NCBI GenBank assembly: GCA_033439255.1
Contig: JAVRDV010000016.1
Location: 868,001-932,000, forward strand
Source: Hericium rajendrae
Taxonomy: Eukaryota > Basidiomycota > Agaricomycetes > Russulales > Hericiaceae
Length of the DNA: 64,000 nt
Reading direction: 5' to 3'
Shown in pieces: positions 22,792 to 43,963 of this stretch (position 1 is the first letter of the stretch; every line of letters begins with the position of its first letter). The translations under genes were made by a program, and so were the position numbers. The notes under the pieces are model-generated. The model was not told where the DNA came from. It ran no database searches and saw only the letters and a list, made by a program, of their open reading frames with translations.

Positions 22792-25176
22792 CTATTCTGA
22801 GTCCTCTGCTGAACTTTCGTGGTCCTCGAAGTGCCTCATAGCTTGCAGAAGCTGCAAGTCCTTCTCCGAATTTGCCTTCCCTTTCCCTTTGCCCTGGTTC
22901 TCCGACGTTTGAAGCTGTTCCTCGAGAGCGATCATTTGTGGAGTCGTCAAACCCTCAGCACGACGGATCGCCTCCTCGAAGCGTGGCGGCGTGGACGCTT
23001 TCGGAGCAAGTCGCGGCTTCCTCGGGTTCTTCGTTCCATCCTCTGCATTGGCATGACAGATCTCCTGCCAGTGCTCCAGCGCACGCTTATTCTCATGTGC
23101 GCGCGCATCCTTCTGCTGTTTCCTCCACTTGGTACGTTCTTGTTTTTCGGCCCTGACAGCAGCACGCTTAATCTTGTCTAGGTCATCCCTTCTGTTCTTC
23201 GTGTCATCTTTCTCCAGCGCCGTCATATACATTGGGTCAGTGTAAACCCGTCGGCCACCTTCTTCTAGGAATTTTCGTGCATTGCTGACCTGTTGCTTTT
23301 TCTTCTCTTTCGCGTTCAAGCGCCGCATTGTTCCCAGGCCTTGTTCATGTTGCACGAGAAGCTGCGCGTCCTGTAGCCGGCGGCGAATCTGCCATTCCTT
23401 CTCGCGCTTCGTCCAGTCAATCTCACGGTCCCTTGAAGATTCGAGAGCAGTGTCAAGCTCAGCCTTGGCCCATCTGAATTTTGCATGAATGTCGTCGGTG
23501 TCGGGCTCTGGATTTCGGGGTCTAGGTGTATGGACAGTATGCGGAGAAGTGGAGGGTCTGGTGGGTGTATTTATTGCGACAGGGTCCAATAGATTTTGTG
23601 TCCCTGCGCTGCCAGGAATGGATGTGAGTGGTGAATTCAGCAAGCGAAACCCGTTCGCAATGTGTGCTGCGATCGCACGTTCCCGATGGTCAGGGGTAAG
23701 GAGCCTCGGATCGATTTTCATTGACTGAGGGGAGAGCTCGGGGCTGCACGGATGTGCTGACGTCGATGGCTGGTGGGGAGTCCGAGATGACGGTGATGTC
23801 TGCTGAGCGAGCTCATCCACTCGGCGAAGGATCCGATCAGCTCTTCGCACAGGTGTTGTCATCGACAATAAGAGATCATTCGAAGTTGATGCTTCCTGAC
23901 TTGGGGCCATCATGTCAGGTGTAACGACGTGCGGTTGGACGGGTCGTGTGAGTCCTGTCACCTGGAATGCACGGAAGTTGTTCTGCGGTGTTGCAACCTT
24001 TGTCCAAACTTGGTGAAAGACGGCCAAGAAATTGTCTTTGCCAACTGGCATTCCATTCTCCTCTTCAAACTCCTTGACTGCAGCAGGCCAGAGCTCTTTG
24101 CAACGCGCAAAGTGGACCCGATCCAAGCCTTGAAGGGCATGCGTCGTTTTCGGTGGATATCCGATCAGCATGATCTTGTTCTGCGCCGCATAGGTGTCAA
24201 ACGCGAGGCCCATATGTGTCTGATGGGAATCGATGTGTAGAACTCGAGTGCGTCCGGCAGCGACACCCTTCGTCTGGCTGTCAAACCACTTTAACCACTC
24301 AAGACTGAGTTCTGAGTCCATCCAGCCATTGCTAGAACAACCCATACTGGCATCATCTGTAAGATTTTATGAAAGCCAGACATGATGAGTTACTCACAGA
24401 CACTTCCCAGGATTGTTCTTGCCCCAGCTTCGCTGAAATCTCTCGCCCTTGAAGATGACGAAAGGCGGCAAGGCAGTGCCATTGCCGCAGATCGTTGGGA
24501 GGACAGTCGTGATCGTGCGATCGCCTTCCTGTCGTGTATGCTGTCGCTTTGTTCCACGAGGGCAAAGAACGCGCTGAGGACCGTGAATCCCATCCCAGAA
24601 TCCTGTTTCGTCACATGCATACTGACACTCCGGCTGCAGGTCGATATCTTCGTAGATGTCAGAAACTGTGTCGTAGTAACCCCCGACAGCATTAGGATTC
24701 AAAGCATTTGCACGCTGTGTCTCGTGCGCGGACCCCCATGATGTCTGCAAGTCTTCATGCCATCGGTCCTTAAATCGCTGGACCCAGTTCTTGCCAAGCT
24801 CCGCATTGGGCGACCGTGCTCGAAGAAGCCTGAGAGCCATTGACTTGAGCTTCGCATTCGTAGGCGGCCTTGCGCGCTTGGCCTGCGCCTTGACCCAGGC
24901 GACAATGGTCTGCTCCTCCTCGACCAGCAACTTCATCTGCTTGTGCCGTGTTTCCCATAGCATCGGTCTTCCCTTATGGGCGTGACGCACGGTCTCGACT
25001 GGGACATCGTGCTTGTCTGCAAAGGGCTTGAGCGAGACGCGTTGCTTGTTGCCAGGATCGTGTTCCTTGGTCGCTAGCGCCGCTCGATACTCGCTGAGCG
25101 CAGCCTGGACGGCTTGCTCTCGCGCCTCCCTCGAGATGTGGTTCTTTACTTGCTGATTCTTTGCACGGCCAACCAT
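22792..25176 (-). CDS. pogo-like (DDE_1) transposase, 777 aa, apparently intact
   Basis: Two exons, 25176-24398 and 24346-22792, with a 51 bp GTGAGT...CAG intron, total 2334 bp. The N-terminus is a psq/CENP-B-like HTH region (VSLKPFADKHDVPVETVRHA) followed by LGKNWVQRFKDRW, the usual CENP-B/Tigger helix. The catalytic core has YACDETGFW, LHIDSHQTH and LQGLDRVHF, giving the three acidic residues of the pogo group. A long basic, coiled-coil C-terminal tail follows (AKEKKKQQVSNARKFLEEGG). It would cut and paste at TA sites. The uninterrupted frame makes a recent arrival likely; lack of a visible right terminus could mean the copy can no longer move by itself. Confidence 0.88.
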
Positions 25177-26079
25177 GCCATTCTAACCTAGACTTATTGA
25201 GTGAGAAATCAGTAAGAGACAGTGTTGTTAGCGAGCCCCACCAGCAGTGGTGCTAAATCGAGAGAAATGATTGGATAATTGGGATCTTAGATTTACCACG
25301 CCGGACCATGTCTGTCTTGTTGATGCCCAGATGTTCCTTGAGCTCGCTAATAGCAGTCAGTTATAGTTGACACAACCTTACTCGTAAAGAAATCGAATTC
25401 TGAGTGAAATTACAGCTGCAGTAGTACTGTACAGAGGACCATAGCGGCGAACAAGCCAGCCTGGGCGCGTCGTGTCGCGTCGTTCACTTTCGCAGGTCGT
25501 TCGACTTCCAGAAGCGTCCTGTCCGTCCGGCCCGTCCTGTCCGTCCTGTCCGTCTGAACCGTTCGCCCCGGACAATTTGGACACTTTCTCCAGACAGTTC
25601 TCTGGACACTCTGGATACTTTGGAACGCGCCCCCGTATTGTCTCTTCACCAGTGTGACTCCCTAGACAGTATGTCACAGATATTTTCTAGTTTTCTCGAC
25701 ATATCTTCTGTTTTCTAACCCTAGCGCTCACGTGCCCTCCGGCAATTCGTGTCCCGCTCTCTTGTTCCCTCACAATCCACAACCTGCGCTGACCTCGCCG
25801 CCCGCCCGCCCGCCCTCTACTTCTCCTGACTGGCTCGGGTGACTGCCATCGTCCACGACTGGATCCTGCGCCGCTGCCCTGTTCTCTTTGTCCAGCATGG
25901 CCGACGCGGGTGATGCGATGAAGTCAAGCGGTGCGAAGAACGGCAGCAGCGCGTGCCGCGCGTCATCTCCCGCGCGCAGATAGCCCTGTGCATCATTAGA
26001 CACCAAAATTCTCCATGTGCGTGTTAGTGCCTACTCACGTCTTCGGTGACATACCTCAGCGCCAAGTTTTCTGCTGCCC
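25177..26079. other. Stretch without a gene, with a GTCC-rich simple-repeat tract
   Basis: A run of (G)TCCGTCC/CCTGTCCGTCC units at about 25515-25560 and GGACA(C/G)T units at 25568-25615. Similar GGACAGTTTGGACAGTT units occur at 45204-45260, close to the second pogo-like terminus. No protein signal. Confidence 0.45.
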
Positions 26080-30095: not shown

Positions 30096-31101
30096 TAGGG
30101 TTCGACACGAGTGCACTCGTGGGTGATCCGGATCCGAACCCACAGGTTTCTGACCTATCCAGGGTGCTGACCTGGATCCGGACGGGTTTCAGCCACCGAG
30201 TGATCCGGAGCCGCGGGTCAGGTACCTGTGACATCACGGGTCACCCGCAGGTCAGTCGGTCCTTACCACTCATAACAAAACCTTCCCGCCATTTTTTTGC
30301 CTTAATCGTTCGCTCTTCGCTATATTTCTTCGAAGCAATAGAAGGGTGGGTCTAGTAGTGGTTAGAGGGGCTTCAGGTGAGTCACGAAATTCATTAATTC
30401 AATTGTCCTATATTGATCTCGGGAGTCTCGCTCGATAATGAGCGAGACTCTCGTTTTCTCGTTGTTTTTCGACAACGAATGACTATGTACCATTCTTCGA
30501 CACCTATCTCACGTCGGCGCCATCCGCGCTTCTCCTCGTCACCCGTAATCACCCCCCACTTTCGACAGTTCCCGCCGGTACCTCCCACATCCTCGTCGAC
30601 ATATTGACCATATGCCCTAACCCCCTCCCACATTCCTAGGAGCACCACGGCCCTGGAGTAGTGCACGGAAGACGAGCGACCGCCGACAACGACTTATGGA
30701 GCCTTGTTGCTGTAGCAATGAGGTTCGATTATCATTCATTCATCACCCATGCGGGGTCGCACGTGCTGACTTCGTCGCGGCGCTCGCAACCGCAGGGAAA
30801 CGGGATGCATAGGCAGGCAGTGCAGCAGAGGGATAGGCAGCAGCTGTTCTTCCCTAGGTGCGTAGCATACTACCATCCTCACGTGGTGCGAAACAGGTTG
30901 GGTGCTGATGTGACCAGGATAATCCAGAGCGAAGGCGCCGCGCACTAAAGCATCAACGAAGATGTCGAGGACATGCATGCGCATGTTGCGCGATATCACG
31001 AAGCAGGAGGCAGCGAAGTTGACGTGCGTGCCTTCAATATACGATTGCGCACATGTCCCAGCACTTCCAGGTTCCACAACAGCAATGCATGTGCACCAGC
31101 C

Positions 31102-31441
31102 CGCACCACGTCCTGCCCGCACCACGTCCCGTCTGCGCCACGTCCCACCCGCGCCACGTCCCGCCCGCGCCACGTCCCGCCCGCATTACGACCCGCCCAC
31201 GCCATGTCCCCGCCCGCACCACGTCCCGCCCGCATCACGTCCCGCCTGCACCACGTCCCGCCTGCACCACGTCCCGCCCACACCACGTCCCGCCCGCGCC
31301 AGGTCCCCGCCCGCGCCATGTCCCCGCCCGCGCCATGTCCCCGCCCGCGCCACGTCCCGCCCGCACCACATCCCGCCCGCACCATATCCCGCCCACATTA
31401 TGACCCGCCCACGCCACGTCCCGCCTGCGCCAGGCCCCGAC
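31102..31441. repeat. 16 bp minisatellite, about 21 units
   Basis: Tandem CGCACCACGTCCCGCC-like units, mostly 16 bp with a few of 17, varying chiefly at CpG positions (CGC/TGC/CAC starts and ACG/ATG). It opens long frames on both strands (HVPPAPRPA-type and WRGRDVARAG-type repeats), but these are a by-product of the repeat. It lies inside the hAT element. Confidence 0.9.
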
Positions 31442-31815
31442 CCTGCACAACGGCCGTGTGTGGCCAAGAGGTGGGCAGGGATAGGAGTGTTGACCGAGCA
31501 GCGGCAGCAGGTTCATGGCAAGGCCATAGCAGTGCTGCGTGAATAGCACGTGCAGCAGCATCCAGCGCGCCCCGCGGTGGGCTCTAATGGGGCGACAGTA
31601 ATCGAGTCGGACAGCAGCGGTAATTCAGAGCAGGTCATGCAGTACTCGCAGTAGACATGTAGCATAGAAAGTTTATGTGTACATAGCCTAGAAACAACAT
31701 ACTGTTGATAAATAATTACTGGACCACAGGTTACCTGTGAGTGACTCGCGGGTTGATGGATTTCAGTAAAAGCTTGACCTGGATCTGGACAGGTCTCAGC
31801 CACCAGGTGATCCGG

Positions 31816-32833
31816 TGATGTGTGGACCCTGGGAATGGAGGCGGCAGCCAAAACCAAAACCAACAGAGTACCGGGGGGTGCGAGGGGACCAAGTATCTCA
31901 AGAGGGGAGCGCCGAGACGTGTAGCTGACGGGTGATCGTACTACGGGTAGGGGAGCAAGGCCGCGGAGGGCGAGCTTGCTGCGCGCGGGCGACTTCCGAC
32001 ACGGCTCTGCTAGGGACGATGACGGTACGACAAGACTCACGGGTCTTAGGTGATACGGCTTGTAGATAACGGCGCGGCGACGAGTACGACGAATATGATG
32101 AGCGACACGAGAAAGTGAGAAGAGCTACGTCTGAGACGTGCTTAGAGACTGGGGTGAGAACGTCAAACGGCGGGCTTTGTGAGATCTGAGCTCTGAGGGG
32201 AAAAAGGCAGATTCCGTTCCGATTCTCTAAGTCAGTAGCTACGGTACAAATGGGCAAGGCCGCCTCTGGCGGCCCGGCGCGACTCCCTACGACAACCTCC
32301 CGCTGACCGACCCAATCTCCAATTCCTTCCTGATCCTGCCTGCTCCGGGTCCCTTGGCGAGTGGAGTCGTTGCGACTCGGCCCGTGCAGGGCAGAGGGCG
32401 TGCGCGTGGTACGAACGAATCAAAGGTGCCGCCTTACAACGTCGCCCGGGCGTGCGTCGGGAACGGCGGGCACGTCGAGCTTGAATGGCTGGGATGACGT
32501 CAGTAGCGCACTGTCGCGGCGCCGCTCGTGATCCGGGGGCGTGTGGGCGTTCGAGGGCGCGTTGATTGAGCCGGCTGGTTCTCTGGGCGCGCTTCTGTTC
32601 CTGTGCCGCTGACTCGTCCGGCCGGTTGATCTCCTGCCCGTTCGGTGCATCGGACCACGGGACGCCGGCTTTAGTCCGACCCGGTCGGTCCCGAACCCGT
32701 GGGGGCGCTTGTCCTGTGCGGGGAGCAACGTCGCGGTGGGCGGACTTGGTGCGGCTGAGGTGAAGTGAAGCGGGACGGGCAAGGAGGCGGGGAGTGGGCA
32801 ATGCCGTTGCAAGGCGCGCTAAAGGGCGCATCA
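31816..32833 (-). repeat. 3' LTR of the Gypsy element
   Basis: 1018 bp, almost identical to the copy at 42927-43944; bounded inside by the polypurine tract and outside by hAT sequence. Confidence 0.93.
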
Positions 32834-32835
32834 TT

Positions 32836-32852
32836 CTCCCCCTAACTGAAAA
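32836..32852 (-). repeat. Polypurine tract, LTR-proximal copy
   Basis: The plus strand reads ctccccctaactgaaaa, directly inside the 3' LTR. The same 17 bp recur at 36283-36299 near the end of pol, and the next ~22 bp are also alike. Confidence 0.75.
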
Positions 32853-33030
32853 TTTAGACTCTCCGTAGTCTAATCTGGAGCCCCACGAGGGATTCGGGCG
32901 CGGACATGCGTGAAGCCGATTGTGCGACGGCGCCCTGGGCGGGTGTGCTGCAGCGAGCCTATAAAAGGCATCTACGCCCCGGGAGGGCACTCAACTCCGA
33001 GCCATCTTCGCGCCCGGCAGTCTTGTCCCG

Positions 33031-33783
33031 ATGAACACCTTCCTTGATCAAGTCTTCCGCCAGAAAGTGACCTGGCTCCTTTCGGAGCGCTCGTGGACCC
33101 CGCTCGATGCGTCCACGCTGTCCAAGCGCGACGCGGTCATCCGGGAACGCGAGATCTGGGGTCGAGACCTCATGGTCGCCGTAGTACGTCCAAGCTCGTT
33201 TGCGGCGTTGTTGCGTACCTGCTAATTCTCGGGACTCCAGAAGGACTACCAGCGCTACGCTGGCGCCATCGACGTGGGTCTGCAGGATGACATCACGCAG
33301 ATGTCGGACCACTTCCTGTCCGAGGCCGCCCGCGCGTCCGGGAAAGTCCGCCGTTGGCTCGACTGGGGTTGGTACCTCATGCCGTCGCTGAAGCGCGAGT
33401 GGCTCGATTCCCTGGAGCACCATCAGGTAGATGCCGCGGACCGCCTGTCCGTGGCCGAGTCCGAGCTGTGGGAGACGCGCCGCGCGGTGGCCCTGGAGGA
33501 AATCGATATCACCTGCCGCAAGTACCAGTATGACGTCATAGACGCGGAGGCCTGCAAGCGGGCTCTGGAGCCGTTGTTCGCCAGGCTGCATCAAGCGGTC
33601 TCCGCGCCGGAGTTGCCGTGGGAAGACGCCGGGGGAGAGGTGAGCGAGGATCCGCATGAGCTAGAGACGATGCACCGCCTAGTGGCGGAGGCACTCGACT
33701 TGGCCGAGCTGCTGCGGCTTCCGCCCTACCGAGCAGACGAGGAGGGCGCCCGTGACAGGGTCGCGGGAGGGGCCGCGGATTAG
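33031..33783 (+). CDS. Accessory gene 1 inside the Gypsy element, antisense to gag-pol
   Basis: The frame starts MNTFLDQVFRQKVTWLLSER and runs to a stop at 33783, apparently with one short GT-AG intron (33184-33240). The predicted protein is about 230 aa, acidic and largely helical (VAESELWETRRAVALEEIDI, LVAEALDLAELLRLPPYRAD). I recognise no domain. It is transcribed opposite to gag-pol, between pol and the 3' LTR. The function is unknown; placement resembles the extra antisense frames known from some plant and fungal Ty3 elements. Confidence 0.5.
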
Positions 33784-34089
33784 TATAGTACGATGTACGC
33801 CGGTGGCGAGCATGCCTCACCGCTCAATTGAACTATTCTGGTGCCAAGGCGCACTATGCTGTCTGTGGGACTTGCCCGTCGTTGAATAGGCTTCCTGTTC
33901 GCGAGACGCGGCTGAAATGACAAATGGGCGCCAATCGGGGCCTGAGATCCTGATTGAGTCCGAAGCGACAACTGTTTTGGCCGGGTGCCCGCGTCGCGGG
34001 CTTCTGCGCGAAGCTGCGAAGCTACCTGTACGCGGGGGCTTCTCCGGAGGCAATTCGCCAGGCGCTTCCGTCTTGTCGCGGAGTCCTTA

Positions 34090-35854
34090 TGAACACTGAG
34101 TTGCGAGGCGACTCGCTCCTCAGCACCTCGTCTCCCATGGCTCGCGCATACGTCGACAACCGCCCCAAGGGTATTCAGGCTCTCGAACGCCTCTTCGGGT
34201 CAGGCCACCCGCGCGAAGGCGACCCCGGCAATGTCTGGGCAGAGTGGATCACCCAGGTTGCCAGTTGCTTGGTGAGTCCGCCGGCGCACGTTTTGCTTCC
34301 GTCCCCGCTGACCACCACTCCTGACAGGGCCCTCTCTTGAGGTCGGGTCGACCCACCTCGACAACGATTTCTTCCGTCGCGGGATCGCCGACGCCCGTGT
34401 AGTCTTCAGCCGCCTCGAGCTGAAGTCCGACCGCAAGTGGGGTGCCAAGGTGCTCGACGTCTTCGAGCCCCCCGAAGACCCGACCGAGACAGAGGACCGG
34501 GAGACCGACGAGCTCGAGGAGAGCGACGACGACACCCAAGGGCAAGGGGCCCGCGCAGGTCGCGCCCGTTTCAACGCGCAAGACAGGGCCCCCTAAGGGC
34601 AAAAGGGCGGCCGCGCCAACCAACGAGACCCCGCAGGCCTCGTCTTCCACGCGCACCAGGGCTCCGTCGCCGCCCCGCTCGCAGACCGGTGAGCAAGACC
34701 GCCTCGAAGTCGCCGCCCTGTTGACCGCCACCGGTGTCGTAGACGCGTCCGCCGAGCGGGACGTAGACCCGGCTCTGGACGCTCCAGTGTCCGCCGCGAC
34801 TCGCGCGGCCAAGCGCAAGGCCGTAGCACCTGTCGAGGAGGAGGAGGCGGGGGACGAGATTGTCGAAGTGCCCCCGCCGGCGAAGAGGGCGCGTACGGGG
34901 CCGGCTGGCGCCGTCGCTGCGAACGAGGGGAAAGGGAAGGCCAAGGCCAAGGAGCCCGATGAGAAGTGGGGTCCGGTAAGTACCCATCTCCTCCACCTGT
35001 GCTCGACGCTAATTTTCTGTTTGCGTAGTGCCTGCCCGAGCAGTGGTGCACCGCGTGCATCAACGAGGGCAAGGAGTGCCTCCGCCGGGTCCTCCCTGCG
35101 AAGAACGTCGGGCGCGCGAAGCACGAGCGATGCTGCGAGTGCAGCGAGAAGCGCACTTCCTGCCTCGCCTGTGTCGACCTCAACGCGCATCTGACGCGGA
35201 TGGGTGCGCCCGTCGTGGATCCCGTTGCTGCGCGCGCCGCCGCGGCTTCTTCTGGTCGCGACCAGGTGGCCGACTCCCCCGTGGTCTTGCCGGGGATACC
35301 AGACTCCGCGGGCGCGCTCCGTAAGTCGCTACCCCACTGTTGCTACGCGTTTGCTGACCGGGTGACCGTCCTACAGCCCCGTTCGAGGCGCTCGCATCTC
35401 GCCTTCCGTTCCCGGTCTCCGACGGCTTCCGTCCAGGGGCCTGGGACTACGTCGACCCCTACGCGTGCATTCCGCGCGATTCGTCGCTCCGCCGCACCCT
35501 GCTCGCGGAGACGAGCGGCAGCTCGTCGGTTTGTACCTCCAACGCATGTCGAACCACGGCCAGATCCTCGCCGTCGAGAGGCTCGTCACGGCCCTCTATA
35601 CGGGCACGCGCGGCGAGTATATCGCGGCGGAGGCGGATGAAGAGGGCAAGGTCGCCAAGGACGAGCCTGCGGACGCCGCTAGCGACGCAGAGGAGGAGGC
35701 CGCGGCGAGTCCCACCGCGGGTCCGTCTTCGCGCCCGCTCGCGAGGGAGTCCCCCGTTCCTTCGGTCGAGGGTCCTGGTGAGCCGTTGGAGCCGACGGCG
35801 GCTCCTGTCGCTGAGGTGGCCGCGTCAGAGGAAGTCGTGCCGGCTGACTCCTGA
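34090..35854 (+). CDS. Accessory gene 2 inside the Gypsy element, with a cysteine cluster
   Basis: A second antisense coding stretch opens with MNTELRGDSLLSTSSPMARA and has a long Pro/Ala/Lys-rich linker with basic clusters (AAKRKAVAP, PAKRARTGP, likely nuclear localisation). Then comes a Cys-rich block, CTACINEGKEC followed by RCCECSEKRTSCLAC, and a tail rich in Glu and Ala ending EEVVPADS. At least two short introns seem likely. The Cys spacing resembles zinc-binding modules seen in transposon-linked proteins of Agaricomycetes, but I cannot name the family. The exact exon layout is uncertain. Confidence 0.45.
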
Positions 35855-36282
35855 CGAGCGGGGCTGTCGCTTTGCGCGGGGAGGGAAAGACCCTCCCCTT
35901 TTAAATTTGCTATCTTGTTTTGTCGTCGTGGAAGTTGTCGCATACGTTTTGTGTTGCCCGGGCCTTAGGCCCGGCTTTTTACTATAGGTCGCTCGTAATC
36001 GGGGACGCGAGTCCTACTGTATCGTTGCTCCTGCCGAATGGGAGCCCATCTTGAAGTCTGAACCTGTGTGAATCTAAAGGGGAAAACCAGAAAGAAACAA
36101 AGTCGCCCCAGGCGATCTTGTCAGGGCCTATACGATTGGTGAAGGTAACATCTGAGTGGTGGATGGTATGAAGATCGCCCAAGGCGAGTTTGTCGAAATG
36201 CAAGTAACAATAGATTTATTTCGTGCGTGTGGGTATTGGTGGGGCGTCCAAGGTCGTCGACACGCTTGACTGACGGCCTCTA

Positions 36283-36299
36283 CTCCCCCTAACTGAAAA
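36283..36299 (-). repeat. Second, internal copy of the polypurine tract
   Basis: Identical 17 bp (ctccccctaactgaaaa on plus) to the LTR-proximal tract, lying at the downstream end of pol; the accessory module is bracketed by the two copies. Confidence 0.75.
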
Positions 36300-39200
36300 A
36301 TGGACTGCCCTCAGTCCTCCTCGCTAGTCGAGTGGTCAGAGGACGCCGCGGGCGAACTTGGTCGGGACCTGTCGATTCGCCGAGGTCGCTGCCGGCGGTT
36401 TCGTCATCCGGGTCTGTGACGGTGGAGGCGAGTAAACGTTCAAACTGCTCGATGCCGACATCGAGGAAATCTTCCAATGGCGGGTGATCGAGGATGGTAC
36501 GGGCGAAATACGGGACAACGCGGTAGGCTGCGGTGGGCCGGTCGAATAACGTACCGTCGAGCTCACACAAGAGGTAAGCACGCCCCTTGTTGCGGCCGAG
36601 GACGAGGTACGGGCCTAGGTAGCGCGGTTTGGTCTTCCGGGAATGGCTGGTGCTGTACGCGGAATTGCGGACAAGTACCAGTTCGCCGCGGCGAAAGTCA
36701 AAGTCGCGGATCGTGCGTTCATGTTCCAGTTCGAATTTTCGTGCTGCCTGGAGGCGGGCCTCGTAGACGCGGCTGTGAAGTCGCTGAAGGTCCTTTTGAC
36801 GCTTCTGCAGGGCAAGAGCGCGGGAGGCGATCAGGTCGGTAGAGGACAAGATCGCCTCGGGCGGCGGTAGCAGGTAGGTGGCTTCCGCGATATCGAGCGG
36901 CATCAGGGGGTGCGTACCGGTTACCGCGAAGTATGGGGAACAGCCCATGCGCCGGCGGATGGTGATACGTTCCGACCAGAACACGGAGTGGGCTGAGTAG
37001 CTCCAATTCTTCTCCACGCCGTCGGCGGCCTTGATCAGGGCTTGGCGTACGTCAAAGTGTGCACGCTCAGCGATGCCGTTGGCTCTCGAGTTATAGCCCG
37101 AGATGCGGATATGCCGGACGTGGTACTTCTTTTCCAGCTGCGTCAAGGCTTTAACGAACGGGCCGCCGTTGTCGGACACGATTTCGGTGAGCATACCCCA
37201 GCGGCACAAGATGTCTTGGTAAATCCAATCAGCAATGTGCTCGCTGCGTTCTTTGCGCAGCATGCGCCATTCGGGAAAGTGGGACACCGAGCAGCGCCCT
37301 TGGACCAGGTATTGCATATTGTTGGATTTCGGCAGGTGCATGGTATCCATGTACATTTTCGCAAATAAAGGCGCGGGCACCGCAACCGTTGGCGGGATAA
37401 GAACTTTGCGGATCTGGAACGCTTGGCAAATATGGCACGAACGGACGAACCAAGCGACATCCGAGCCCATAAAAGGCCACCAGAAACGGACCGCGAGCAG
37501 GAGGGCGGTGCGGCGACGCCACGGTGTCCCGCGGACTCGTGAGTCTCAACGAGAGCAGCCCAGCGGCCGGTCGGCGGGAGCACTAGTTTGTGCGCATTTG
37601 TCTTGTCGCGCTTCCAGAGGCGGCCACCTTTCATGAAGAAGTCGCGGCAATAACGCAGGAAGCGAGCGTATTCCCGGTCCGTCAGTCCGTCAGGGCGGAT
37701 CGGATGGAGCAGGAAGTCGGTGACGGCGCGCAGTCGGGCATCCGTGAGGAGGGATTTTTCGGACCTTGGAACGTCTGCGTAGGACGCCAAGTGGTCTTGC
37801 GGAGGAGGCGCGACAAAATCGCCGGCGGCGACATTGGTCGAGATGAGCTGTTGGGCCAGCTGAGGGCGGTCGTGGCCGATCCGAGGCACATTTATTATGT
37901 GTACAAAGCCATAAGCACGGTCGACCCAGTCGTCGAAGTCGTCGTCGGGTTCGGGCGCATCATCGTCCTGGGGGCGGCGCCGGGAGAGGCCATCCGGCCC
38001 ATGCTTCTCGCCAGGGACGTGGACCAGGGTAAATTGAAACATGAGGATGCCGACGATCCACCGGTTCATGGACGCACTAGGGGCGAGATCGGGATTATTC
38101 AGCATGCCGGATATATAACGGGCGTCGACTTCGATAATCAGGTTGCGAACGCCAATGAGCCAGAGTTTGAGTGCGCGAAGGCTCCGGTATAGGCCATATA
38201 ATTCCAGCTTTGGTTGGGAGAAGCGCGCCTCACGGTCGTTCAGGGCGATAGAGCCGAAGCGAGCATACCGGCGAACTTTGGGGTCGTCCACATCCTGTTG
38301 ACAGAGTAGGTAACCGATGGCAATATAGGAGGTGTCGACGCCCAGGATCACTGAGGCGGGAGACTCGTAATCTATCGCGCGCAGGGCGGGTGATGCGAGT
38401 AGCGCTTGTTTAAGGTCTTCCTGCGCAGCCAACTGGTCTGGGCCGAACTCGAATGGGGTGTCCTTGCGCGTAAGCCGTACCAGATGGTGAGCACGTTTTG
38501 CAAAGTTCTTGATGAAGATGCGGGCCACGCCAATGGTCCCGAGGAAAGCGCGAACGTCCGAGAGGTCGGTACAAGGTTGCCAGTTGCTGACCTTGGCGAG
38601 GTTGCTGAGTTCTGGCAAACGGCCCGCCGGCGTGCATCTATGGCCGACGACGATGATTTCCGGCGCGCAAAGGACAGTCTTTTTCCCTGAGAAGGTACCA
38701 CCGCAATATTTCATGCGTTGGACGACACGGTTCGCGCCCTGGAAGTGTTCCCAGACAAAGCGACGAATACCTGGGTTCCAGGGTATAGTTTCAAAATTTC
38801 CGCCGGGCAACTCGTAACGGGTAGCTGGGCCTTTAATGGGGACATCATCGATATAGGGCATGGTGACAGCTGGGATTTCTGGCCGGAGGATTTCGGTAAC
38901 GTCGTCGTGGAAGATAGGCACGGAGTTCGTCCACCCCATGGGCAGCGTAACGAGCCGTTTGGGCCCGAACGGGGTTTGGAACGTGGTCATGTCGCGGGAC
39001 TCCTCCGCCAAGAGTCGCTCGTCGTAACCAACGTAGAGATCGAGGATGCCGCCGCAAGCACGCCCGGCGAACTGCTCGGCGAGCTGGTCGGTAAAAGGCG
39101 GGACGCCCGAGTGAGCGATGGTGACCTTGTTGAGTGGTTCGAGACTGTGCACAATGCGCAGGCTTGTACCATCCTTTTTGGTGACGCAGAACCAGCGTGA

Positions 39201-42200
39201 GCGATATGACGACGACGAAGGCTCATATACGCCGGCGGCGATCTTGGTACGGATAATCTCGCAGACCTTGTCATGGATGCCTGGCGGGATTGGACGGTTC
39301 TTCAAGACCCAGGGGGTGTGCGGTATCACCGGCATAACCACTGAGGGGAAGAAGTCTTCGCGGAAATGTCCCCGCTCTGAATCGTCCCAGGCGAAGGCGG
39401 TATCGTGGAGACACATGAAATGGTGGAGTAGGTCGCGCTCGGAGGGCCAGAGGAAACCTTCTGGATGGGCGCGATCGATAACCGCTTTTCTTTCTTCGGT
39501 ATAGTGGGCGGTGGGAGCGAACGGGGGCGGATTGGGAGATAACTCCGGCAGGTCTTGGAGAGGGTCGCCTTTGATGTTACGGAGAACCCGAAAACGCTCG
39601 GGGAGGTCCGTAAATACTGGGCGGACTTTTTGGGCAACTGGCTTGTATTTCTTTGCGGCGTAAGAGGCGACAGGAGGACCGGTATCCGTCGCGCCAGGAG
39701 GCGGCGGACCCGGGCGACCTTGCTTGGAAGCGGAAGCGGACTTGCAGGCTGTAGCGGAGAGAAAGGCGGACAACAAATTAGATTTATCGGGGGCATCCGA
39801 AAGCGAAGGACCCCCCGGACTAGAGTCGAGAAGCGAGGCATCACAGGCATAGAGATAAAGAGATTGAAGATGATCTTGGCGTTTTTCTGGGTTTTCGGAA
39901 CATTCTGGGGGTATAGCGGCATAAGCCGTGATTTGCGGCGTCTCCGAGTCGAAATCAACGATGAAGGCGACCTCTCCTTGATCTTCGATCAAATCATCGA
40001 AGCGCGAAAATCCTCCTTTGCCGCGAGCGTATACTGAATGTCAGTGCGCGGGTGGGTGGGGATCGTGGCTGCTTCGCCGGTGTTTGGGTCGAAGATGGTG
40101 ATGGTCTGTGTTTCATTGCGGTAGCTGCGCACGACTGACTCGGTAAGCACATCGAAGGGGCGTCCGAGTAGGATATCGTAGGCGGGCGACCGGAGGACGT
40201 GTATTTGGAGGTAGAGAACAATGTTGCCGAAGACTGCAGGCACGTTTCGGCACAGGCCCAGCGAGTCATCAAGTTCGCCGTTGGCGGATTGCATAGTGAG
40301 GATAATCGTGGGGTCATACGACAGGCCTAAGGTGTAGCAAACGCTCTCTGACATGGAGATGACCTGAGAACCTGGGTCCAAGATGCACTCGACCGGTTCT
40401 TGATGATCTATGAGTGCTGCAATAGAACGCAGCGCCGCAGACTCGCGCGAGACGATCAGGGGTTTAGGCTTTTCGTCCGGGCGGAGTTGCTTGAGGTACT
40501 GCTCGTAGGGATCCGGGAGGACGACAGCACCTTCCGGCGGCTCGGCGCACTGGTGCGAAAGGATAGATACTCGTGGATGAGGGGGCGAGGCCGGATGCTG
40601 CACACGGTCGCCTTCGGCGGGCTCGCTCGCGAACTGGATACCTGCAGCGAGCTCTACTTGACGCGCTGGCGAGGCCAGCTCCTCGACTGCATCTTCACCT
40701 GGCAGCTCGGAGAGCAGGTCAGTCTCGTTAAGGACTTCCAACAGGTTCTGTCCCGCCACCGGACGCGTGTGACGCCGTGAGACTGCCTCCTTGTATTTCG
40801 CACGTAGTGCAGGAGCCAGGGACCAGAGCTCGCCCTGGGTGACCTCGATAGGGAGGGACATGGCGCGCGCGAACACGCGGTCCAGCACGTCTTGCCCGAC
40901 TGAGTCTTGCGCACGACGGGTTGGGCCCGTCTCTTCGACTACTTCGATCACTGGGACTTGCGCGGGCCTTGCACCGTCGCGGGCTCTGGCAAATGGGTGG
41001 ACGGGACCATCAGGGTCGCGGAGGTCGTCGCGTACCGCAGGTTGAGATAGAAGGTGGGGGGGGACGTCTCGTTCCGGGCCTGGGGCCGGTGAAGCTTGCG
41101 GAGGGGGCAGGGACGCCCGCGGCGGCTCTGGTTCGTCCTCGATGGTCGGGCGCGGCGGCGCACGGGGCAATCGTGGAGGGGCTGGTTGGCGGGCAGGCTC
41201 TTCCATCCTGCGAGCTCGTTCCAACGCCCGGTTAGCTCTATCACGGCTGGCCGCGGCATTGGGTGGGGGCACAACCGAGGCGTCCTTCAACTGGTATAAC
41301 CGCCGTAGCTCGCCCTCCAGGCTCTCGATCCGCGCGTCTGTGGTGAGCTGGTACAACCCTGCCTGGACCTGGGTATAGGGGGACGCGGTGGTCTGAGCGT
41401 ATGCCGGCGCGACGCGATAGCCGTAGGGGGAGGAGCCCGCCCGCGGCGAACTTGCCTGGTGGGTACCGGCTACACCCATCATAAGCTGACCCGTGGCTCG
41501 CTGATTGGGGTTCATACGGTGGTATTCGTCGATCCGTTCGGCCATAGTCGCGCCTGGGGGTCCTTGCGGGAGCCAAGCCCCAGAGGGTAAGACCATCTTG
41601 CCTTGGACGTCCTTCTTGCACTTGCCGGCGGCCATGTATTCCCGGGCTGTCATGCATTCGCGCACGAAATGCCCCACGTTCCCACAGAAGTTGCACTGAT
41701 CCGACCCCATTCGCCCACGCATTGGCGCGCCTTGATTACCTCCGGAGACCATCGGTTGACGCGACGGCTGCTGCGCGCTCCTCAAGAGGATATCGGCCAG
41801 TGACGCTAACTGCTCACTCTTAATCTGGATAGTCGTCCCTGAGCCTGCATCGGCGGTTGATGACGACGCGGTGGCTTGAGTTGACGACGGTCCACGCAGG
41901 TACGGGTCGGGGGTGATGGCAGTGCCATACATGCACCACTCTGCGGCCCTATAGACGTCGTTGATCGGGTGCGGATCGTCGGGATGGTGATCAGGCTTGG
42001 TAAGAGCAAGGCGGTCCTCTACCCGCAGGCGAAGACGTTCGGGGAGCGCCGCCAAAAACCAGCGTTGTTCCTCGATATCGGAGATGCGGTTCTTGCCTTT
42101 CAGGTAGCGCGTGATGACCGTGAACTCGCGCGAGAACGCACCAAGTTCGCCGACGGAACTGAGGGTGGACTCGGCAGTTCGGTGGACGAGTGACTCCAAA

Positions 42201-42926
42201 TCTTGACGCGAAAAGGTATTCTCCTTAGCCGAGCCCGGGTAGAGTTCGTGGATAGCTTTCTTGAATTCGTCCCAAGTGCCGGCGGCGTACTTGGCCTCGG
42301 ACCGCCACAGCTCTTGTGCGTCAACGTCTGAGAGGAGACGGACCGCATGACTCTTTTTCTCCGCGTCATCTGCCACGGAGGAACGCTGAAAACAAAATTC
42401 GAGATCGAGGAAGTAACGGCCCAGCTCGCGGGGGGAGTTGGTGTCGAACTTGGGAGCACCGCTCTCGCCGCGCATAGGCATGGAGGGGGGCGGCATGACT
42501 GGTTGGATACTTGGTGGCCTGGGGAAGGGGAAACGTGCAGGGGCTAGCGGGCTGTGTTGTTGAGTAGGAGAAGGGGGACGGGGGGTAGCAGGGAAAGTCG
42601 CCTGGTGCGGCGTTGTCCTAGGACCCGCGGTAGCAGAGGGGCCGGCAAGGGGTCGCGGCGCCGGAGTTGGCGATACGGGTGGAGTAGGAACGATGAAGGA
42701 ACGCTCGAGCTCGGGAATTTCGAACTCTTCGTCGATGGGAGTAAGGGGACTAGTGGGAGTTGGAACCGGCGGGAAAGGTGACGGTAGGTCGGGGGAAACT
42801 TGCTGAGGGTCCTGAGTCGCAACACGGACTTCTTGTTCGAGGGTACGATCTGGATTCGACCGTGCGCTACTCCTAGTACGACGCGGCTCTATTTTGAGTA
42901 TGGAACCCTCGCGGTGGGCTCCAAAA

Positions 42927-43944
42927 TGATGTGTGGACCCTGGGAATGGAGGCGGCAGCCAAAACCAAAACCAACAGAGTACCGGGGGGTGCGAGGGGAC
43001 CAAGTATCTCAAGAGGAGCGCCGAGACGTGTAGCTGACGGGTGATCGTACTACGGGTAGGGGAGCAAGGCCGCGGAGGGCGAGCTTGCTGCGCGCGGGCG
43101 ACTTCCGACACGGCTCTGCTAGGGACGATGACGGTACGACAAGACTCACGGGTCTTAGGTGATACGGCTTGTAGATAACGGCGCGGCGACGAGTACGACG
43201 AATATGATGAGCGACACGAGAAAGTGAGAAGAGCTACGTCTGAGACGTGCTTAGAGACTGGGGTGAGAACGTCAAACGGCGGGCTTTGTGAGATCTGAGC
43301 TCTGAGGGGAAAAAGGCAGATTCCGTTCCGATTCTCTAAGTCAGTAGCTACGGTACAAATGGGCAAGGCCGCCTCTGGCGGCCCGGCGCGACTCCCTACG
43401 ACAACCTCCCGCTGACCGACCCAATCTCCAATTCCTTCCTGATCCTGCCTGCTCCGGGTCCCTTGGCGAGTGGAGTCGTTGCGACTCGGCCCGTGCAGGG
43501 CAGAGGGCGTGCGCGTGGTACGAACGAATCAAAGGTGCCGCCTTACAACGTCGCCCGGGGCGTGCGTCGGGAACGGCGGGCACGTCGAGCTTGAATGGCT
43601 GGGATGACGTCAGTAGCGCACTGTCGCGGGCGCCGCTCGTGATCCGGGGGCGTGTGGGCGTTCGAGGGCGCGTTGATTGAGCCGGCTGGTTCTCTGGGCG
43701 CGCTTCTGTTCCTGTGCCGCTGACTCGTCCGGCCGGTTGATCTCCTGCCCGTTCGGTGCATCGGACCACGGGACGCCGGCTTTAGTCCGACCCGGTCGGT
43801 CCCGAACCCGTGGGGGCGCTTGTCCTGTGCGGGGAGCAACGTCGCGGTGGGCGGACTTGGTGCGGCTGAGGTGAAGTGAAGCGGGACGGGCAAGGAGGCG
43901 GGGAGTGGGCAATGCCGTTGCAAGGCGCGCTAAAGGGCGCATCA
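42927..43944 (-). repeat. 5' LTR of the Gypsy element
   Basis: 1018 bp, followed inside by the primer-binding site complementary to a tRNA 3' end (tRNA ending ...GTGGGCTCCA). Confidence 0.93.
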
Positions 43945-43963
43945 TGACTCGTGTCGAACCCTA

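Follow-up and report, generated by a model that had tools for sequence, protein, structure and literature searches.

The window analysed here, a stretch of 64,000 nucleotides from the fungus Hericium rajendrae (contig JAVRDV010000016.1, positions 868,001 to 932,000; C16:868001-932000 in our numbering), carries on its minus strand a Ty3/Gypsy retrotransposon with TG...CA long terminal repeats (LTRs), a primer-binding site (PBS) after the 5′ LTR and a polypurine tract (PPT) before the 3′ LTR. The same tract occurs a second time at the end of pol, and the 3.43 kb between the two copies (hereafter the module) hold two plus-strand genes, A and B, antisense to gag-pol. We consider it fairly probable that the element belongs to a recently active family which has turned into a carrier of accessory genes. 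Most likely, the module and an additional primer site came to separate pol from the LTR, while the ancestral site stayed where it was and has been retained. The features on which this interpretation is built are the following.

31816–32833, minus strand: 3′ LTR (TG...CA), boundaries read from the sequence.
32836–32852, minus strand: LTR-side polypurine tract, 2 nt before the LTR; by its position, the primer of plus-strand strong-stop DNA.
32854–32873, minus strand: LTR-side hairpin, TTAGACT-ACGGAG-AGTCTAA in element sense, upstream of the LTR-side tract.
32960–32967, plus strand: TATA box (TATAAAAG), 71 bp ahead of the gene A start codon.
33031–33783, plus strand: gene A, 231 aa, with an intron at 33184–33240 (57 nt in the window copy); no Pfam family.
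34089–35854, plus strand: gene B, 540 aa if intact, with introns at 34272–34327, 34976–35028 and 35321–35376; frameshifted in the window copy.
36283–36299, minus strand: internal polypurine tract, enclosing the stop codon of pol.
36302–36317, minus strand: internal hairpin, GGACT-GAGGGC-AGTCC in element sense, upstream of the internal tract (folding z −3.24).
36289–43528, minus strand: gag-pol frames (CCHC knuckle, protease, reverse transcriptase, RNase H, integrase), three open reading frames (ORFs) in the window copy.
42927–43944, minus strand: 5′ LTR.

The two LTRs are 99.6% identical over their aligned span. The most upstream gag-pol ORF of the window copy extends back into the 5′ LTR, and many other copies of the family possess one long open frame through the reverse transcriptase (RT), for example of 1243–1250 aa. 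Integrase_H2C2 and RT_RNaseH_2 are recognized above the Pfam cut-off; RVT_1, protease and CCHC fall below it, yet stand in the expected order. The domain order gag–protease–RT–RNase H–integrase, with integrase last, is that of Ty3/Gypsy elements (Metaviridae).

The 17-mer CTCCCCCTAACTGAAAA, which reads TTTTCAGTTAGGGGGAG in element (minus-strand) sense, is found at both 32836–32852 and 36283–36299, with a separation of 3447 bp. The LTR-side copy is followed by AA and then by the LTR start TGATG, and the stop codon TAG of pol falls within the internal copy. Genome-wide (46.8 Mb, 19 contigs), 81 exact copies were detected against none for the pattern read backwards, which rules out a chance repeat. 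Neighbouring tracts on the same strand less than 20 kb apart form 31 pairs, 25 of them with a spacing of 3447–3519 bp; the remaining six are spaced by 203, 1137, 6177, 6487, 12329 and 17981 bp. Similarly, when the 36 RT blocks of the family were considered (88–100% identical over at least 391 of the 405 query residues, seven shorter fragments having been dropped), a tract lay 1.9–2.1 kb downstream of 29 of them, and 22 were followed by both tracts, at approximately 1.99 and 5.45 kb (the second at 5.3–5.7 kb). A DNA search with the module returned 62 candidates; among the best 40, which were scored, at least 25 match it over its full length at 95–100% identity. An earlier note on this DNA had described the repeated 17 bp tract and, between its copies, about 3.4 kb with two genes on the opposite strand, and had proposed a cargo-carrying element. 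This description is borne out: the gene models are credible, and a multi-copy family carries the module as a conserved component and keeps both tracts.

The position of the module can be read from sister families in the same genome, whose RTs are 45–49% identical in amino acids to that of the window family (long matches). In one sister (L044), the pol stop codon (305–307) and the start of the 3′ LTR (352) are separated by a gap of only 44 bp. This LTR start was tested with the query L044:301-800: among 33 matches, 10 run unbroken across the pol end and the LTR (query 1 or 3 to 500), and 15 more begin near the LTR start (11 at query 52, i.e. L044:352, and four at 40–50), as would be expected of 5′ or solo LTRs. 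The sister tract, TTCCCCGCGGA, is followed by TGTCGCG and occurs at 20 genomic sites with at most one mismatch. For 18 of these, a sister RT block (in three cases a fragment) is located 1852–1893 bp upstream; one lies 3017 bp from an RT block and one has no block nearby. The internal tract of the window family, at approximately 1.99 kb after the corresponding RT block, thus sits at the only tract position of the sisters, which places the module and the LTR-side tract beyond the ancestral site. A second sister (L045) has its tract and hairpin as in L044; a third (L046), with no integrase match and no pol end seen, is uninformative. The sister LTR (L044:352-1738) is long, at least about 2 kb as judged by eye from the frames common to L044 and L047, and contains a sense frame of 437 codons (428–1738), part of whose protein is also present in the 5′ LTR of L047. 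The 5′ part of the sister L047 consists of a long LTR and gag; an antisense module concealed there was ruled out for this one stretch, as no match to gene A or B was better than an expectation value (E) of 0.86. The earlier note had suggested looking for relatives with a single tract and no module, and these sister families are indeed such relatives.

One explanation of this arrangement, put forward in outline by the earlier note, is an exchange at the tract itself: through recombination or template switching precisely there, a pol–tract–LTR element and a module–tract–LTR element would have given rise to pol–tract–module–tract–LTR. We regard this as quite possible, if short of probable. The single-tract, module-free state of the sisters fits it, and so does the fact that the identity of the two tracts stops, on the 3′ side, at the predicted plus-strand start. 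The flanks give a more complex picture. Each tract has a hairpin directly upstream (stem of 5–7 bp, loop of 6 nt), and the similarity between the two flanks, which the earlier note had called alike, is limited to this short hairpin and the tract: none was detected further upstream (493 of 500 shuffles score as high), and downstream the two differ from the first base on. Moreover, the two hairpins are unlike in sequence while the 17-mers are identical. A recent direct duplication of the tract region is ruled out by the unrelated wider flanks, and since the hairpin sequences also differ, the tract duplication is old; the same two observations argue against a simple, recent tract-to-tract exchange.

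The hairpins were compared in a set of eight sequences from five contexts, which comprises the LTR-side and internal sites (each from the window and from a divergent copy), two copies of a short family described below and two sisters. In this set, 95.8% of the cells are paired, against at most 50% in slid controls; four of the six pairs change in both partners (as many do so in 12 of 500 shuffles), and the covariation score is reached by none of 500 shuffles. Judged from these alignments, the hairpin structure is maintained at both tract sites.

The short family (L009-L025) is a gag-only LTR family with a single tract and no module, for which 21 junctions were found. The one copy that was read (L010:4128-8604) has LTRs and a single ORF of 630 aa with a CCHC knuckle. 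It has in common with the window family the last 94 bp of the LTR (the U5 end) and 38 bp at the PBS, mostly at approximately 97% identity, and its gag is only about 65–70% identical to that of the window family. The flank upstream of its tract matches the LTR-side flank at 22 of 24 positions (0 of 500 shuffles) and does not match the internal flank; this suggests that ends have been swapped among such elements, a further point for an exchange at the tract. The window family is its only other relative among the best 40 of 66 candidates, and probably mobilizes it in trans, to judge by the shared ends. The short family was ruled out as a clean ancestral state because its flank resembles the cassette at the module end and because it is gag-only (L010); on its sequence, it is a derived chimeric element and not an ancestor. 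In addition, no joined LTR–tract–pol copy of the window family was detected at up to three mismatches, all 21 matches belonging to the short family.

What speaks against an exchange exactly at the tract is, first, that no donor was found. Gene A matches only the window family and one orphan module fragment (L041) in the genome (all 62 candidates scored), and the same holds for gene B (best 80 of 141 candidates); the orphan is without LTR or tract within the 9 kb read. Second, the event is old and its 5′ junction bears no footprint. Third, an insertion of the gene pair beside the tract, followed by restoration of the tract at the LTR, would look identical.

The conservation and use of the two tracts bear on another explanation, namely that the internal tract is a relic, the primer of the time before the module, and now simply encodes the end of pol. 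Its sequence identity would then be owing to the youth of the copies and to its overlap with the pol stop codon. Sixteen modules were aligned (the window and 15 others, L026-L040, among the 25 full-length matches), with a divergence of just 0–5%. All 16 share an unchanged internal tract, and 15 an unchanged LTR-side tract, the exception being one substitution in L037. Neither of the two outcomes that the earlier note had named as refuting it was thus obtained, namely a module common to all relatives without a duplicated tract, or a second tract that is not conserved between copies. Of the 529 differences in the 14 commonest classes of this alignment, 390 are C>T or G>A at CpG, a predominance that would be expected from cytosine methylation of the element.

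Which tract defines the ends of the element was examined by a search with the U3 half of the LTR, in which the best 40 of 105 candidates were scored (one further 100-bp piece was dropped). A tract stands directly past the U3 end in 21 of the 40 matches and is absent from the other 19, of which 17 pair, as 5′ LTRs, with a tract-bearing LTR no more than 40 kb away. Both LTRs were thus scored in 17 elements, and there the tract adjoins the 3′ LTR only, which indicates that the LTR-side copy defines the ends of the cDNA. If the internal tract were used for strand transfer, the module would be expected outside 5′ LTRs; in the scored elements, no full-length module match lies beyond any of the 19 tract-less LTRs. 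From these positions, the internal tract can at most be a second plus-strand start.

The view of the internal tract as a relic is consistent with several of these observations: no element end was observed starting at this tract, which occupies the sisters' only tract position and includes the pol stop codon, and the aligned copies are young. However, a copy that is 11–15% diverged (L042/L043, 85–89% identity) retains both 17-mers exactly, the internal one at 17 of 17 positions, together with both hairpins. In addition, the hairpin arms differ between the two tracts and pairing is nonetheless kept, although the pol frame could constrain part of the internal tract, and the point is not decisive. 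On the whole, we find the relic explanation doubtful.

The genes themselves bear on whether the module does anything for the element. Their predicted introns were located in the 16 copies by approximate motif search; every copy has GT at the 5′ and AG at the 3′ intron ends, and the introns of gene B measure 56, 53 and 56 nt in every aligned copy. Introns this short, like the types of element present, have a fungal look. Gene A encodes 231 aa in 12 of 16 copies. The TATA sequence TATAAAAGGCA is exact in 15 of the 16 aligned copies and also in the divergent L042. Gene B is Cys-rich, and its exon 3 (35029–35320) holds the pattern C-x2-C-x6-C-x17-C-x2-C-x6-C, preserved in L043. Zinc clusters of the Zn2Cys6 (GAL4) type follow C-x2-C-x6-C-x(5-12)-C-x2-C-x6-C, and their first half contains basic residues; compared with this, the Cys spacing of gene B fits, the linker has 17 residues and basic residues are few. 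A zinc-cluster DNA-binding role of gene B is possible and no more than a lead. Neither gene falls in a Pfam family (best E 0.47) or significantly matches a PDB chain (best E 0.34), and no relatives were detected in viral contigs with the RT, gene B or exon 2 of gene A as queries. Structure models of the module proteins are too poor for comparison (mean predicted local distance difference test scores of 51 and 48); that of gene A exon 2 is mostly helical, at low confidence.

Selection was assessed by comparing synonymous variants with the number expected from context-matched placement of variants. Those variants of gene B common to at least two copies comprise 35 synonymous and 34 non-synonymous changes, where 24.7 synonymous are expected (P ~0.004). 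Singletons are neutral (77 synonymous versus 74.2 expected), and shifted-frame controls display no synonymous enrichment. With all variants pooled, only a small excess is left: gene B has 112 synonymous versus 99.2 expected (reached in 21 of 500 placements) and gene A 44 versus 37.9 (reached in 44 of 500). As far as variant counts between copies can tell, this pattern shows that gene B is under purifying selection.

These results make it unlikely that the module is a functionless passenger, i.e. host genes or another transposon caught by a family that spread despite them. Such a passenger would account for the many broken frames and for the short family, which manages without the module. It would likewise fit a copy at C11:1486157-1495490, which has lost the end of gene A and, among the matches listed, gene B too, and which retains both tracts (C11:1486689/1487826, spacing 1137) and an open frame of 1243 aa at RT. 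However, it does not predict the synonymous excess among the shared variants of gene B, the retention of the introns in all 16 aligned copies and of the TATA box in 15 of them, or the full-length state of 25 of the 40 scored module matches; nor is there a homologue elsewhere in the genome among the scored candidates. Finally, it is very improbable that the internal tract is a second origin selected to make the module double-stranded early, with A and B transcribed before or without integration and gene B, through its zinc cluster, acting on tract-side palindromes or the LTR. If true, this would be a retrotransposon that exploits a duplicated primer to have its accessory genes expressed before it integrates.

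The reading we prefer, that of an accessory-gene carrier, would work as follows. The module probably came with its own tract and LTR, via recombination or template switching with another element. During reverse transcription, both purine tracts would escape RNase H and remain as RNA primers. Plus-strand strong-stop DNA and strand transfer would come from the one beside the LTR, while the internal tract would act as a second plus-strand start, like the central PPT of HIV or PPT2 of Ty1, filling the downstream 3.4 kb and losing the race for strand transfer. Genes A and B would be expressed from their own promoter. Because they oppose gag-pol, their introns would not be spliced from the genomic RNA and would outlast reverse transcription, which may explain why introns persist in the module. 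Gene B, whose product looks nuclear, is both acidic and basic and has a Cys block of Zn2Cys6 type, would most likely be a DNA-binding regulator or accessory factor, and the helical product of gene A may be its partner.

Several observations weigh against this reading. Gene B is full length in only five of 16 copies and is broken in the window copy, and selection on gene A is not significant (13 synonymous versus 10.1 expected, P 0.15). The Cys pattern of gene B arises in 161 of 100000 shuffles of its 50-residue block, and Pfam gives no Zn2Cys6 domain in the protein. Among copies so young, tract identity is by itself a weak sign of constraint. The number of further pair types in the hairpins does not exceed that of shuffles (271 of 500), and when five cassettes were folded as RNA, only the internal one was clearly more stable than shuffles (z −3.24), the other four giving z values of −0.39, −1.44, −0.10 and −1.10. 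Only 18 of the 28 listed sister RT blocks have the sister tract (at most one mismatch) at the distance given above, and 10 are without it. Furthermore, the short family has managed to spread on a single tract and in the absence of a module; it would seem that neither the module nor the second tract is needed in cis.

Some further observations concern the surroundings of the element. Ty3/Gypsy insertions are typically flanked by a short target-site duplication of 4–6 bp. No matching 5-bp duplication was found at the window copy, the only one inspected (TCCGG at 31811–31815 versus TGACT at 43945–43949), which, despite the 99.6% identity of the LTRs, suggests a rearranged flank or a recombinant element. 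A tandem array with a 16-bp unit (CCACGTCCCGCCCGCA-like) occupies 31095–31455, near the 3′ LTR, and a fragment approximately 90% identical to the U3 half of the element's LTR lies at 1297–1826. On the minus strand at 22792–25182, a DDE transposase of the Tc5/pogo type is present in two frames, with DDE_1 and HTH_Tnp_Tc5 above the Pfam cut-off.

The earlier note mentioned extra antisense frames in some Ty3 elements, but no precedent for this arrangement with these genes. In general terms the arrangement is less novel than the note supposed, since extra PPTs have been described, as have antisense genes that follow pol and precede the 3′ LTR. The plant aORF-3R elements (Grande, RIRE2, Retand) and the fungal Boty carry antisense ORFs in this place according to the excerpts consulted (PMC7264820, PMC11963269), and the antisense gene of Grande is described there as having its own promoter. 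The window family resembles them in the position of its antisense genes, and the TATA box upstream of gene A may mark a putative promoter; unlike these elements as described in the excerpts, it has two genes, with predicted introns and of no known family, bracketed by two hairpin–tract cassettes. In the env-like Ty3/Gypsy elements Athila4 and Calypso, an extra PPT is reported in the linker between pol and the LTR (excerpts from PMC2829016), and an env-less element of the Athila lineage is reported to have its pol end 128 bp from the PPT (excerpts from PMC1142308). Athila4 and Calypso are thus alike in having a second PPT and an additional gene in the linker, but differ in that the gene is env-like and the hosts are plants.

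Ty1 (PPT2) and HIV-1 (the central PPT) are known to prime their plus strand at an additional, internal site that lies upstream of the 3′ PPT, as summarized in excerpts from the same paper, PMC2829016. The window family similarly has a second copy of its PPT sequence, where priming is predicted; in the excerpt, however, the Ty1 and HIV-1 tracts lie within coding domains and bracket no module. Sireviruses (Ty1/copia) are described in that source as having, in the linker, an average of four AGGGGGAG octamers as PPTs, with an inverted repeat that adjoins the terminal PPT and spans the PPT/LTR junction, the upstream PPTs being without such a repeat. The octamer also ends the window tract, and an inverted repeat by the PPT is a shared trait; unlike in these copia elements, as far as the source describes them, both window tracts have a small local hairpin. 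For Ty3 itself, the relevant part of PMC5371799 states that no second PPT was identified, and the portion of PMC3185511 consulted contains nothing on second tracts in Gypsy elements. Among titles and the openings of abstracts, with few subscription journals covered, we found no report of an intron-bearing antisense gene pair bracketed by two hairpin–tract cassettes. Each feature is therefore known from other elements as described in these sources, and the combination of antisense genes and twin tracts appears to be new.

The window family offers a clean case for asking why some LTR retrotransposons retain antisense genes close to the 3′ LTR, with dozens of young copies, module-free sisters in the same genome and a gag-only relative. 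It places a second, hairpin-bearing PPT in a Ty3/Gypsy element, and the duplicated primer site provides a marked junction which makes a gain by exchange of ends testable. The family may also illustrate how genes with introns can persist in a retroelement if they are oriented antisense to it.

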